Shown here: one piece after another, positions 2,120 through 5,797 of the stretch
Position numbering within the stretch: the stretch's first letter is position 1
How the letters are laid out: each line of letters starts with the position of its first letter
NCBI GenBank assembly: GCA_029004715.1
Contig: JAQVYX010000005.1
Span: 1 to 44,722 of the forward strand
Source: Acidaminococcaceae bacterium
GTDB taxonomy: Bacteria; Bacillota; Negativicutes; Acidaminococcales; Acidaminococcaceae
Length of the DNA: 44,722 bases
Reading direction: 5' to 3'
The notes under the pieces: model-generated
What the model was told of the DNA's origin: nothing
The model's input: only the letters and a program-made list of their open reading frames with translations
Databases searched by the model: none
Program-made: the position numbers and the translations under genes

Positions 2120-2148
2120 ATTATAGTTTTTTGTTAGTCCCTTGTCAA
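2120..2148 (-). promoter_or_regulatory. Sigma-A promoter of greA-lysS
   Basis: On the minus strand TTGACA (2148-2143), a 17-bp spacer and TATAAT (2125-2120): both hexamers match consensus. It lies in the 74-bp gap between the acyl-ACP-reductase-like gene and greA, about 40 nt before the greA start, and separates greA-lysS from the upstream operon. Confidence 0.9.
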
Positions 2149-2151
2149 CCT

Positions 2152-3237
2152 TCAGGCATGCCCCATGACAAGTTTTTGTGTCCACACCTGTCTAACAACA
2201 GCAATTTCTTCTGCGGTTACAGGCCTTTCAAAATTACGAAAACCAGCTAATTCGAAATTATGTTTATCAGCTAAAGCAGAAATAGTTTTAATTTGTTCAA
2301 TGGTAATATTTCTCCCTAAGGTGAAATTTTCATAGCGCCCTTCCAATGCCAATAGCATTGTCTCTGCCATACAAGCATAAGACGTTCTTGGCGGAAAGCC
2401 AAAATTAAATCCAAAATCAACGTCGCCCGGTACCTTAATGACACCACCTTCTATAACTAATACATCTTTCCTGCTAGAGCTAACAACCTTAGAAACATTT
2501 CTAGGTCGTGCTACATCGCAAACAACTGCCCCCGCTTTCAAATCTCCCGGTTCTATCAAGCAATCTACCGCGCTCGTTACCGTAATTACAACATCAGCAT
2601 CCTTTAAGCTGGCCGTAATATCGGAAGAAACTGAAACTCCACAACGCACTTGCCGGTCTAATTCCTGTGCTAATTCTTCCAAGGGAGTTTTGTGCCTAGC
2701 CACCAAAGTCATATGTTTGACTTTTCTTGCCAGCATTTTAGCACAAGCAGCACCAATAGAACCCGTTGCTCCCACAATAGTAACATTAGCCTCTGCAATA
2801 TCACGTCCTAGACATTTAATTGCTTCCTCTGTACCTTGCAAGGCAGTGGCAACAGTGTAGCTATTTCCGCTAGTTACAGCAATATCTAAATTTTTAGCAA
2901 TGGTTATTCCTGCATCCCCTACAATTGAAGTGAATGCACCCAAACCTACTATTTTAGCACCCAGATCTTGAGCTAATTTACCTGCCTCAATTATCTTGTC
3001 CGTAACATACTCTTCCGGCAGAGTCAACATTTGCCTAGCTGTTAAGGGGCACGCTATGAACCAACCTTCTGCCGTTGCATAAGGTGATTTTACTCCTGTA
3101 ATATGCGAAACTTTAATTGGCCCCACATGTTTCATAGCCCCTTCAATAAAGCTATCCGGCACATACCTTAAAATGGGAAACTTTCTAGCAAAATCATCAA
3201 CTACTAAGGGATGCAAAATGAACGCAAACTTTTCCAT
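2152..3237 (-). CDS. Long-chain acyl-ACP reductase-like protein (AAR family)
   Basis: Resembles cyanobacterial acyl-ACP reductase, which reduces fatty acyl-ACP (or acyl-CoA) to fatty aldehyde with NADPH. Seen in the 361-residue product: GLGAFTSI (98-105), an SGN motif (123-125), the Rossmann loop GATGSIG (156-162), the block YACMAETMLLALEG (287-300) with Cys289 where AAR has its catalytic cysteine, and GRNITIEQI (308-316). Automatic annotation often calls such proteins shikimate/saccharopine dehydrogenase; the cysteine block argues for the AAR relationship. The ATG at 3237 overlaps the upstream stop (TGATG) and has AAAGGAG 8 nt before it; a TTG at 3240 is possible. Last gene of a three-gene operon. 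Family assignment is good; the substrate is unproven. Confidence 0.8.
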   Translation of the reverse strand: MEKFAFILHPLVVDDFARKFPILRYVPDSFIEGAMKHVGPIKVSHITGVKSPYATAEGWFIACPLTARQMLTLPEEYVTDKIIEAGKLAQDLGAKIVGLGAFTSIVGDAGITIAKNLDIAVTSGNSYTVATALQGTEEAIKCLGRDIAEANVTIVGATGSIGAACAKMLARKVKHMTLVARHKTPLEELAQELDRQVRCGVSVSSDITASLKDADVVITVTSAVDCLIEPGDLKAGAVVCDVARPRNVSKVVSSSRKDVLVIEGGVIKVPGDVDFGFNFGFPPRTSYACMAETMLLALEGRYENFTLGRNITIEQIKTISALADKHNFELAGFRNFERPVTAEEIAVVRQVWTQKLVMGHA

Positions 3238-4151
3238 CAAATAGACTCCTTTGTCTCTAAATAATCAATTTCAGGTTTAACATCATATTGTTGCAATATA
3301 GCTTTATATGTGTCTCCATCTAAAGCAGTTTTACTACCCTTTAATGCTACCAAAACTGCTTCCATTACATTTGTACCAAAGCTACGACCTTGAAAATTTG
3401 GCGTTACAGTAATAAGGCAAGCAATACCTGCTTTTGTCAAAAACTTTCTATCTTCAGGCGTAACGGTATTGGTTATCATTATTTTTCCAGGCAATGCGGC
3501 CGGCATAAAATGCCTAATAAAATGAAAGTCACCGGCAATAATATCATTTTGCAAAAAATACTCTGGATGGCGCACTATACTTTTAGTTTGACCATCGCCT
3601 GTAGGATAGAACCAATCAATAGGTAATTTAGTAATAATAGGCACAACTAATCTGGCTAAAAATTTTAGAGATTGTAAAGATTTAATTGGGTAGTTTATCC
3701 CTAACCCATAAATCAAATCACCAAAAGTAACTTGAGCTCCTGCTTGAACAAGAGCCTGTCCCAGCGCTAAGCGATCAACACCGCACATGTGTAAAACGCT
3801 TTTCCCGTGGAAATCAATAATCCCCTTGGCCGCTAATTGCTCTATCAAATACGGTTCCAAAGAACGTTTTAGTCCGCTACCATCTAAAACCGGAGTATGC
3901 TCAACACCAGCAATTAGTTTAGCACTATCGTTAAAAACATAGGGCTTGTCTCCGGCAAAAATATAAAGATCAGTTCCGCCCAAACCAAAAGCATCAACTT
4001 TACCATCGTATTGCACAAACAACGCTCTAGCTTTTTCTTTATCACCATCAGTACCTCTACGCTCTATATGGATTACTTGGTTGCCAATTTCCACCTCCAT
4101 AGAGGCATCTCTACTGCTGGAGCCCAAACTAATACTTAGTACATATTTCAC
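3237..4151 (-). CDS. Protein of the 'quinate 5-dehydrogenase'-labelled family, function unknown
   Basis: 304 residues. I recognise the family as the one many genomes label quinate 5-dehydrogenase, but I see no classic glycine-rich Rossmann loop at the N-terminus and know of no biochemical support for the name. Visible motifs: SLGSSSRD (8-15), RRGTDGD (31-37), DGKVDAFGLGGTDLY (49-63), PVLDGSGLK (87-95), YPTGDGQ (182-188) and a C-terminal segment with NFQGRSFGTN (252-261). Several are Gly/Asp-rich and could bind a nucleotide or phosphate (inference). The GTG start follows the regulator's stop by 1 nt and has AAAGGGG upstream. The gene is translationally linked to the AAR-like gene by a 1-nt overlap, which suggests the two act together. 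Confidence 0.7.
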   Translation of the reverse strand: MKYVLSISLGSSSRDASMEVEIGNQVIHIERRGTDGDKEKARALFVQYDGKVDAFGLGGTDLYIFAGDKPYVFNDSAKLIAGVEHTPVLDGSGLKRSLEPYLIEQLAAKGIIDFHGKSVLHMCGVDRLALGQALVQAGAQVTFGDLIYGLGINYPIKSLQSLKFLARLVVPIITKLPIDWFYPTGDGQTKSIVRHPEYFLQNDIIAGDFHFIRHFMPAALPGKIMITNTVTPEDRKFLTKAGIACLITVTPNFQGRSFGTNVMEAVLVALKGSKTALDGDTYKAILQQYDVKPEIDYLETKESI

Positions 4152-4152
4152 T

Positions 4153-4683
4153 TTAGCCCAACCCCTTTATACTTTGCATAACATCTGCAATAATTTTGGG
4201 GTCTAGGTATTTATCTTCTTCAATAGGTGACTCACCAATAGAAATTCCTACAACATGCTTATCTAGCAAAGCCTCAGCACTACGAATTCTCATATCAGAT
4301 GCCGCTACTATAACAACATCGTTTTCTCTTAGCTTGGCAACTATGGACATAACATCATTAAGTAACTGTACACCAGTCCTAGACTTTACAAAGGCCCAGC
4401 GTTCTTGCTCACTAAAAATTACAGAAAAATCTATCCCTTCCTTATTAGCCAAAGTTATAATTTCTTCCGCATTGTTAATAGGAAACGCAACTAGAGCTAC
4501 TTTACCACCTTTGCGAATTTCTCCAAGACTCTCTAAGCGCGATATAAAGGCCCTATCCGTTGCATAGGCTTTCGCTACTTCTGTTTGCGAAAACCCTTGA
4601 ACGCGCATATCAAGCATGGAAACTATCTGTTGCACGATTTTATTTCTATTTATAAGTTTATCGCCAATACGTATAAGCTTCAT
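4153..4683 (-). CDS. HTH transcriptional regulator of the AAR-like operon
   Basis: Small DNA-binding protein of about 176 residues. Residues 29-58 form a helix-turn-helix (GFSQTEVAKAYATDR then FISRLESLGEIRKG). The remainder is an alpha/beta domain with hydrophobic strands (KVALVAFPI at 61-69, NDVVIVAAS at 121-129, HVVGISIG at 143-150) that looks like a ligand-sensing fold, although I cannot name the ligand. Two in-frame ATGs compete: 4692 is only 2 nt from GAGGGG, whereas 4683 is 11 nt away, so I chose 4683. It is the first gene of the operon and lies just downstream of a 37-bp palindrome covering the -10 box, so autoregulation is likely (inference). Confidence 0.75.
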   Translation of the reverse strand: MKLIRIGDKLINRNKIVQQIVSMLDMRVQGFSQTEVAKAYATDRAFISRLESLGEIRKGGKVALVAFPINNAEEIITLANKEGIDFSVIFSEQERWAFVKSRTGVQLLNDVMSIVAKLRENDVVIVAASDMRIRSAEALLDKHVVGISIGESPIEEDKYLDPKIIADVMQSIKGLG

Positions 4684-4701
4684 ACTAAACATTACCCCTC
4701 A

Positions 4702-4738
4702 AAAATATAGTGTGCACAATATGTGCACACTATATTTT
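4702..4738. promoter_or_regulatory. Palindromic operator at the promoter of the regulator operon
   Basis: A perfect inverted repeat with 16-bp arms (4702-4717 and 4723-4738) around a 5-nt centre; the core is TGTGCAC-N5-GTGCACA. It contains the -10 box (4734-4739) apart from its outermost base and covers the predicted transcription start. Position and symmetry fit a repressor operator, most simply for the HTH protein encoded directly downstream. A hairpin terminator is less likely because it lies between the promoter and the first gene. Confidence 0.75.
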
Positions 4739-4762
4739 ACCACAAGCTTATTGCTTTCTCAA
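4734..4762 (-). promoter_or_regulatory. Sigma-A promoter of regulator/'quinate DH'-like/AAR-like operon
   Basis: Minus-strand TTGAGA (4762-4757), a 17-bp spacer and TAAAAT (4739-4734). The predicted start falls inside the 37-bp palindrome, giving a leader of roughly 40 nt before the regulator. Confidence 0.75.
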
Positions 4763-4825: not shown

Positions 4826-5797
4826 TTAATCAGCCAACAACTGTTGTTGATACTCTTGCAAAAGCCTAATGAAGTCTTCATAGTTTTCTATTTGATTAAA
4901 TTTGACTCTAAAAGTTGCCGACTTAGGAAGGCCTTTAAGATACATATTTACATGCCTGCGCATTTCCTTCAATGCTATTACTTCACCCTTAAAAACTATG
5001 AGATCTTGTAGATGTCTTTTAATCATAGCAAAACGAGTAATAATCTCCACCGGAGCTGGCAATGTTTCCCCACGCAAGGCAGCCTTTAATCCCGCAAAAA
5101 TCCAAGGATTACAATCAGCACCTCTACCTAACATGATACCATCACAACCAGTTTCTTGTAACATGCGTAACCCATCATTTACGGTCATGATATCGCCATT
5201 ACCAAATACAGGTATTTTTACAGCTTGCTTCACCTGTTTTATAATATTCCAATCTGCATTTCCACTATAGAATTGTTCCCTTGTCCGTCCATGTATTGCT
5301 ACTGCCGCTACTCCCGCCTTCTCAGCCAAAACTGCTATTTCAGGAGCATTTAGATGGTCACTATCCCACCCTGCACGAAATTTTGCTGTTACAGGAATAT
5401 TCACGGCTTCCACCATAGCTGCCAATATTTCATATGCAAGCTGCGGTGTTTTCATAAGAGCAGAACCTTCACCATTAGAGACTATTTTATGCACAGGACA
5501 GCCCATATTAAAATCAACTATATCAGCACCTGTTTCTTCAACAATCTTAGCCGCCCGTGCCAAATCATCTGGAGAACTTCCAAAAAGTTGAATAGCTGTT
5601 GGTCGTTCACTAGCAGCTATGCGTAACATAGAAAAAGTTTTAACGTTTTTATACAATAACCCTTTAGCACTAACCATTTCCGAGACAGTAAGCCCGCATC
5701 CTTGCTCGCGACAAATAACGCGATACGGCAGATCAGTAACGCCTGCCATGGGCGCCAAGGCCAAAGGAGTATCCATTTTAAGTTTACCTATTTGCAT
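4826..5797 (-). CDS. dusB: tRNA-dihydrouridine synthase B
   Basis: FMN-dependent reduction of specific uridines in the tRNA D-loop. The 323-residue protein is a TIM barrel with LAPMAGVTDLPYR (14-26), the active-site cysteine in DFNMGCPVHK (Cys100), a catalytic-site lysine in TAKFRAGWD (Lys139), and HGRTREQFY (169-177). An OAM-type C-terminal helical domain follows. Start ATG at 5797 with AGGAG. A coaX terminator hairpin ends directly in front of this SD, so dusB depends on read-through or on a promoter inside coaX. The Bacillus neighbour order dusB-lysS is kept, with the AAR operon and greA inserted between. Confidence 0.96.
   Translation of the reverse strand: MQIGKLKMDTPLALAPMAGVTDLPYRVICREQGCGLTVSEMVSAKGLLYKNVKTFSMLRIAASERPTAIQLFGSSPDDLARAAKIVEETGADIVDFNMGCPVHKIVSNGEGSALMKTPQLAYEILAAMVEAVNIPVTAKFRAGWDSDHLNAPEIAVLAEKAGVAAVAIHGRTREQFYSGNADWNIIKQVKQAVKIPVFGNGDIMTVNDGLRMLQETGCDGIMLGRGADCNPWIFAGLKAALRGETLPAPVEIITRFAMIKRHLQDLIVFKGEVIALKEMRRHVNMYLKGLPKSATFRVKFNQIENYEDFIRLLQEYQQQLLAD

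Follow-up and report, generated by a model that had tools for sequence, protein, structure and literature searches.

The window (the whole 44,722-nt stretch of Acidaminococcaceae DNA analysed here) carries a recognisable enzyme superfamily, that of the AAR/PigE acyl-thioester reductases, within a new, widely conserved and very probably self-regulated operon that also encodes an unnamed partner family. In the reading that we prefer, to which we assign a probability of roughly 0.55, the three genes termed here HTH, g2 and AAR form a self-regulated unit, in which HTH would be the repressor, AAR would reduce a thioester to an aldehyde, and g2 would be the core partner. Reductases of the AAR type have been described chiefly in cyanobacterial alkane synthesis and in pathways to pigments or alkaloids. 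No description of this operon was found in the open-access literature, and g2 is encoded in 291 of the 399 phylum genomes sampled, yet none of the libraries that we searched gives it a family name. Beyond a sequence-only reading of the same DNA, our analysis adds a proposed operator, a predicted fold for g2, aminotransferase fusions, and lineages whose AAR lacks the cysteine. Through the HTH-operator pair the ligand can be sought directly, and the chemistry of the reductase lends itself to direct assay.

Organization of the operon

Genes on the minus strand follow the order dusB, HTH, g2, AAR, greA, lysS, with these features:

4826-5797, minus strand: dusB, upstream neighbour of HTH
4734-4762, minus strand: promoter-like TTGAGA-N17-TAAAAT, 5' of HTH (consensus match only, 10/12, with TG before the -10)
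4702-4738, no strand assigned: perfect palindrome with 17-bp arms and a 3-nt spacer, directly upstream of HTH; proposed HTH operator
4153-4683, minus strand: HTH, a 176-aa regulator with an N-terminal helix-turn-helix and a C-terminal alpha/beta domain
3237-4151, minus strand: g2, a 304-aa conserved protein of predicted AAR-like Rossmann architecture
2152-3237, minus strand: AAR, a 361-aa acyl-thioester reductase homologue
2752-2772, minus strand: GATGSIG dinucleotide-binding loop of AAR (from the sequence and a HMMER alignment)
2371-2373, minus strand: TGT codon of AAR Cys289, within YACMAETM, aligned with catalytic C294 of Synechococcus elongatus AAR
2120-2148, minus strand: promoter TTGACA-N17-TATAAT between AAR and greA (perfect 12/12 sigma-70 consensus match)

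The tight linkage of three ORFs noted in the sequence-only reading is borne out, with a 1-nt gap between HTH and g2 and a 1-nt overlap between the g2 stop and the AAR start. AAR begins at a conserved ATG at 3237, giving 361 aa; an alternative HTH ATG lies upstream at 4692 and is less conserved. Nearly all of the relatives that we examined share the order dusB-(HTH)-g2-AAR-greA; the linkage is not due to chance, and the operon proposed earlier is a real one. The perfect consensus promoter before greA suggests that greA-lysS is started separately and that HTH-g2-AAR is a single unit. Two apparent irregularities were dismissed: a g2-AAR read-through in locus L009, where a normal stop is present, and an internal stop in L003, which is simply an earlier natural end.

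AAR belongs by sequence to the AAR/PigE superfamily

The AAR product is best matched by the PigE profile among NCBIfam models (2.7e-65, residues 41-356), with the AAR profile at 4.1e-39 (residues 41-330), and its best PDB match is PigE (4ppm, 2.5e-32), with S. elongatus AAR (6jzq) at 2.7e-30. By sequence it is thus an acyl-thioester reductase of the AAR/PigE superfamily, yet at 134.8 bits, against the 449.7-bit cut-off of TIGR04058, it lies outside the AAR equivalog. Against the PigE equivalog NF053554 (reductase plus aminotransferase, cut-off 850 bits) it scores 221 bits through the reductase part only; by profile it is a PigE-like reductase, not PigE. It shares the Cys and NAD(P) loop common to the family with the N-terminal thioester reductase domain of PigE, an enzyme demonstrated to convert a thioester into an aldehyde (PMC8341465); it differs in standing alone, without the C-terminal aminotransferase, in sitting with HTH and g2, and, compared with PigE (prodigiosin), in having no pigment cluster adjoining.

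Current names would make these genes shikimate/quinate dehydrogenases, and Pfam does report a Shikimate_DH match to AAR (PF01488, 1.9e-13). That match is confined to the Rossmann segment (residues 145-256) and lacks the substrate domain, the full-length AAR/PigE matches are far stronger, and g2 has no such match; a shikimate dehydrogenase identity for AAR is thereby contradicted, and we give the named functions next to no credence. The sequence-only reading, which had favoured a thioester reductase and suspected the names of being misleading, is supported on both counts, and the profile search gave no firm placement among shikimate dehydrogenases.

When aligned by HMMER with the AAR of S. elongatus (residue roles, including catalytic C294, from PMC7089970), Cys289 pairs with C294 and GATGSIG, which has the GxxGxxG form of a dinucleotide loop, pairs with GATGDIG, so that both the AAR-type loop and the catalytic-Cys block singled out earlier are present. 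(Residues are numbered from the ATG at 3237; HMMER-alignment numbers are one higher.) Homology to cyanobacterial AAR (TIGR04058; PDB 6JZQ) extends over nearly the full length, and equivalents of C294, GATGxIG, R189 (R181), R314 (R309) and H7 are kept, the last matched by eye to H9, outside the printed alignment. In contrast, Y247 has become Arg (R244), and R193, an NADPH 2'-phosphate residue as are R189 and R314, aligns with Pro in the PDB alignment. Nor is the ADO interface kept: Q70 and D81 stand opposite the ADO-docking residues R73 and R79 (alignment numbering for the window's protein, one above that from the ATG at 3237). A cyanobacterial-type alkane pathway of AAR plus ADO, for which the AAR homology is the one argument, is contradicted both by these replacements and by the absence of ADO (PF11266) from the genomes of all 61 relatives (0/61; the control was detected in S. 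elongatus), and its probability is negligible.

The 18 homologues from the window's class all have Cys289 (18/18), and mean column identity of AAR in that class is 72%; the close homologues, in which loss of the cysteine would have spoken against the sequence-only reading, thus retain it. Across the phylum the catalytic Cys is present in 101 of 112 AAR homologues; among the 11 others, L148 is set apart only by an alignment that was split, and its Cys is kept. The AAR tree is broadly taxonomic, with Negativicutes sequences grouping together. One metagenome-assembled genome titled Acholeplasmataceae (L033) has an AAR that groups with Acidaminococcaceae, and its title is probably wrong.

A predicted AAR-like fold for g2

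The middle gene, called a 'quinate dehydrogenase' in the sequence-only reading, has no sequence match in Pfam, NCBIfam or PDB, and that label was not reproduced. AlphaFold models it confidently (mean pLDDT 91, pTM 0.88), and the predicted fold appears closest to AAR-family reductases: the two best Foldseek matches are the AAR-family structures 9e4s and 9e4u (9e4s at 1.0e-6, TMq 0.53), the first of which was likewise hit by AAR in the PDB sequence search, and ranks 6, 11 and 32 are the AAR-family reductases 6jzq A/B and 6jzu (TMq 0.46-0.51; rank 6, 6jzq, at 1.6e-5 and TMq 0.51). Superposition on AAR-family structures gives TMq 0.46-0.53 with an rmsd of 8-10 angstrom; the other matches are mostly dehydrogenase-type Rossmann or periplasmic binding proteins of lower TM. 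As we read it, the order of secondary structure in g2 runs parallel to the AAR motifs, for example SFGTNVMEAVLVALKG versus SYACMAETMLLALEG, a pairing that would place Thr/Asn of g2 at the position of the catalytic Cys. Profile-profile comparison of g2 and AAR failed three ways (hhalign probability <1%), and we therefore do not claim common descent. Many polar residues are invariant or nearly so, among them D90, K95, E99, D126, R127, D145, D208, R256 and E264.

HTH, a proposed operator and a proposed mechanism

The palindrome at 4702-4738 reads AAAATATAGTGTGCACA-ATA-TGTGCACACTATATTTT and is perfectly symmetric, with the core TGTGCACA-ATA-TGTGCACA at 4711-4729. Upstream of HTH, the core TGTRCACA-N3/4-TGTGCACA (≤2 mismatches) occurs in 68 of 80 HTH-positive loci (66/78 after removal of duplicates), whereas it was found in 0/48 g2 loci without a detected HTH and in 0/1760 shuffled sequences; its presence with the regulator and absence without it make HTH very probably a dedicated autoregulator. 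The 12 HTH-positive loci without the core include several from Syntrophomonadaceae that retain the proximal half-site. In genome-wide searches of 21 genomes, exact or near-exact sites lay almost nowhere but at the operon, so that a wider HTH regulon was rejected; some genomes have scattered 2-mismatch sites, and the operator is near single-copy overall. The window's own genome has one functional-looking site, a second lying inside a methylmalonyl-CoA mutase gene. HTH resembles Tfx-type/XRE-like regulators weakly, chiefly in its N-terminal helix-turn-helix (NCBIfam 1.7e-5 to 1e-4; PDB 3vk0, 1.2e-4), but falls below all curated cut-offs; a fold search returned nothing below E 1e-3, and for the C-terminal alpha/beta domain no fold was matched with confidence.

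We propose that HTH binds the TGTGCACA-N3-TGTGCACA operator, which would overlap the transcription start, and keeps the operon repressed until it is released by a ligand from the pathway; both binding and the sign of regulation are inferred from the position of the operator at the predicted start. AAR would then move an acyl group from acyl-ACP or acyl-CoA onto Cys289, and the acyl-enzyme would be reduced with NAD(P)H to an aldehyde, a chemistry that family, cysteine and loop make likely. With an AAR-like predicted fold and no matching cysteine in the proposed alignment, g2 would be the conserved core partner, either a subunit serving the reductase or an enzyme acting beside it. More tentatively, g2 may represent a new branch of the AAR fold, devoid of the cysteine, which partners a bona fide reductase or acts with HTH alone; the pathway, undescribed but widespread in anaerobic Firmicutes, would lead from an acyl group to a conserved aldehyde or amine that is sensed by the pathway's own single-target repressor; we hold this wider proposal to be possible, though clearly less probable than the unit itself.

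Distribution and a lipid alternative

The operon recurs in most sampled anaerobic Firmicutes lineages. g2 was found in 41/61 close relatives and, nearly always at E 1e-104 to 1e-152, in the 291 phylum genomes; the genome collection has at least 554 stretches that carry it. Among 80 named loci, AAR is present in 66, HTH in 61, dusB in 68 and greA in 70. The co-occurrence survey that had been suggested divides the 399 genomes into 239 with both AAR and g2, 3 with AAR alone, 52 with g2 alone and 105 with neither (Fisher 5e-52, a value that overstates independence, the genomes being related), where a genome counts as AAR-positive for a match with E below 1e-30 at any position, paralogues not adjoining g2 included; at L142 and L143, for instance, no AAR adjoins g2 though the genome scores positive. 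AAR is thus almost always accompanied by g2 (239/242), the sole exceptions being G091, G203 and G256. Many Syntrophomonadaceae loci consist of HTH-g2 without AAR, and these, together with the 52 genomes, indicate that g2 function does not depend on the reduction in every case.

The sequence-only reading had suggested that AAR supplies a long-chain aldehyde for plasmalogens or other ether lipids, chain length being an assumption on its part. The host genome does have a PlsA-type DUF2229 protein (open frame of about 1426 aa), but this marker is distributed independently of g2 (with/without, 28/8 among g2-positive and 13/3 among g2-negative genomes; Fisher p=1), so that g2-positive genomes without it exist, as does the reverse, and bacterial plasmalogens are stated in a passage of PMC9702350 to derive from diacyl lipids. 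A role in plasmalogen supply is accordingly not supported, and we consider it very improbable.

Variants of the AAR slot

In three lineages a class-III aminotransferase is fused to a Cys-bearing AAR directly after HTH-g2:

L103, 6979-9501: aminotransferase-AAR fusion
L145, 3640-6369, minus strand: aminotransferase-AAR fusion
L148, 2604-5243, minus strand: aminotransferase-AAR fusion

According to excerpts of PMC8341465 and PMC9594044, PigE and TamH reduce acyl thioesters to aldehydes and then transaminate these to amines, and an excerpt of PMC10829540 reports assayed transaminase activity for Thermaerobacter and Thermincola aminotransferase-AAR fusions. The domain order of the TamH-type, Thermaerobacter and Thermincola proteins is that of our three loci, and the excerpts of PMC9594044 and PMC10829540 treat the fusions as enzymes, with no mention there of an HTH-g2 operon or regulator. 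The fusions and the PigE/TamH precedent support aldehyde formation by the operon's AAR and, by analogy, point to aldehyde-to-amine chemistry in the fused lineages, where the aldehyde would very likely become an amine. Were this true throughout, the aldehyde from a stand-alone AAR would be transaminated to an alkylamine by an enzyme encoded elsewhere, an idea with which the PigE profile as closest match also agrees. However, the window's operon and most of its relatives have no aminotransferase, and the fusions sit on long branches of the AAR tree; we judge a general amine pathway unlikely.

Other lineages argue against a simple enzyme story. The Cys is gone from the AAR slot in L060, L065, L072, L074, L108 and L157-L161, and in L149-L153 and L155 the slot can hardly, or no longer, be recognised; in all of these, and in L156, the slot is kept but the Cys and/or the NAD(P) loop is lost, the extreme being unrecognisable proteins of similar size. 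Cys loss requires at least two independent changes on the tree, where these branches are long. g2 is still conserved in such loci, scoring about 1e-137 to 1e-146 where scored. HTH-g2 might accordingly be the conserved core, with g2 the pathway-defining enzyme or a ligand-binding protein and AAR an accessory whose catalysis is confined to certain lineages. The strength and breadth of the g2 matches, its many invariant or nearly invariant polar residues and the persistence of HTH-g2 where AAR is lost or degenerate all favour this arrangement, but AAR almost never occurs without g2, and its 72% identity in the window's class implies a functional tie where it is present. We regard an HTH-g2 core with accessory AAR as rather improbable, and prefer the self-regulated unit in which AAR would be the reductase and g2 its partner.

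Neighbouring genes

Split DUF2229/HGD-D CoA-activase-type genes lie upstream of dusB in the flanks of the Syntrophomonadaceae-type loci L080, L091, L095, L097, L100, L102 and L106; as a clue to lipid function they were set aside, being short proteins in the flanks of some Syntrophomonadaceae loci only. A conserved protein of ~320 aa, without a Pfam match when tested on L110, is encoded between dusB and HTH at L050 (4337-5332) and 14 further loci, mostly in Sporomusaceae and Thermosediminibacter-like genomes.
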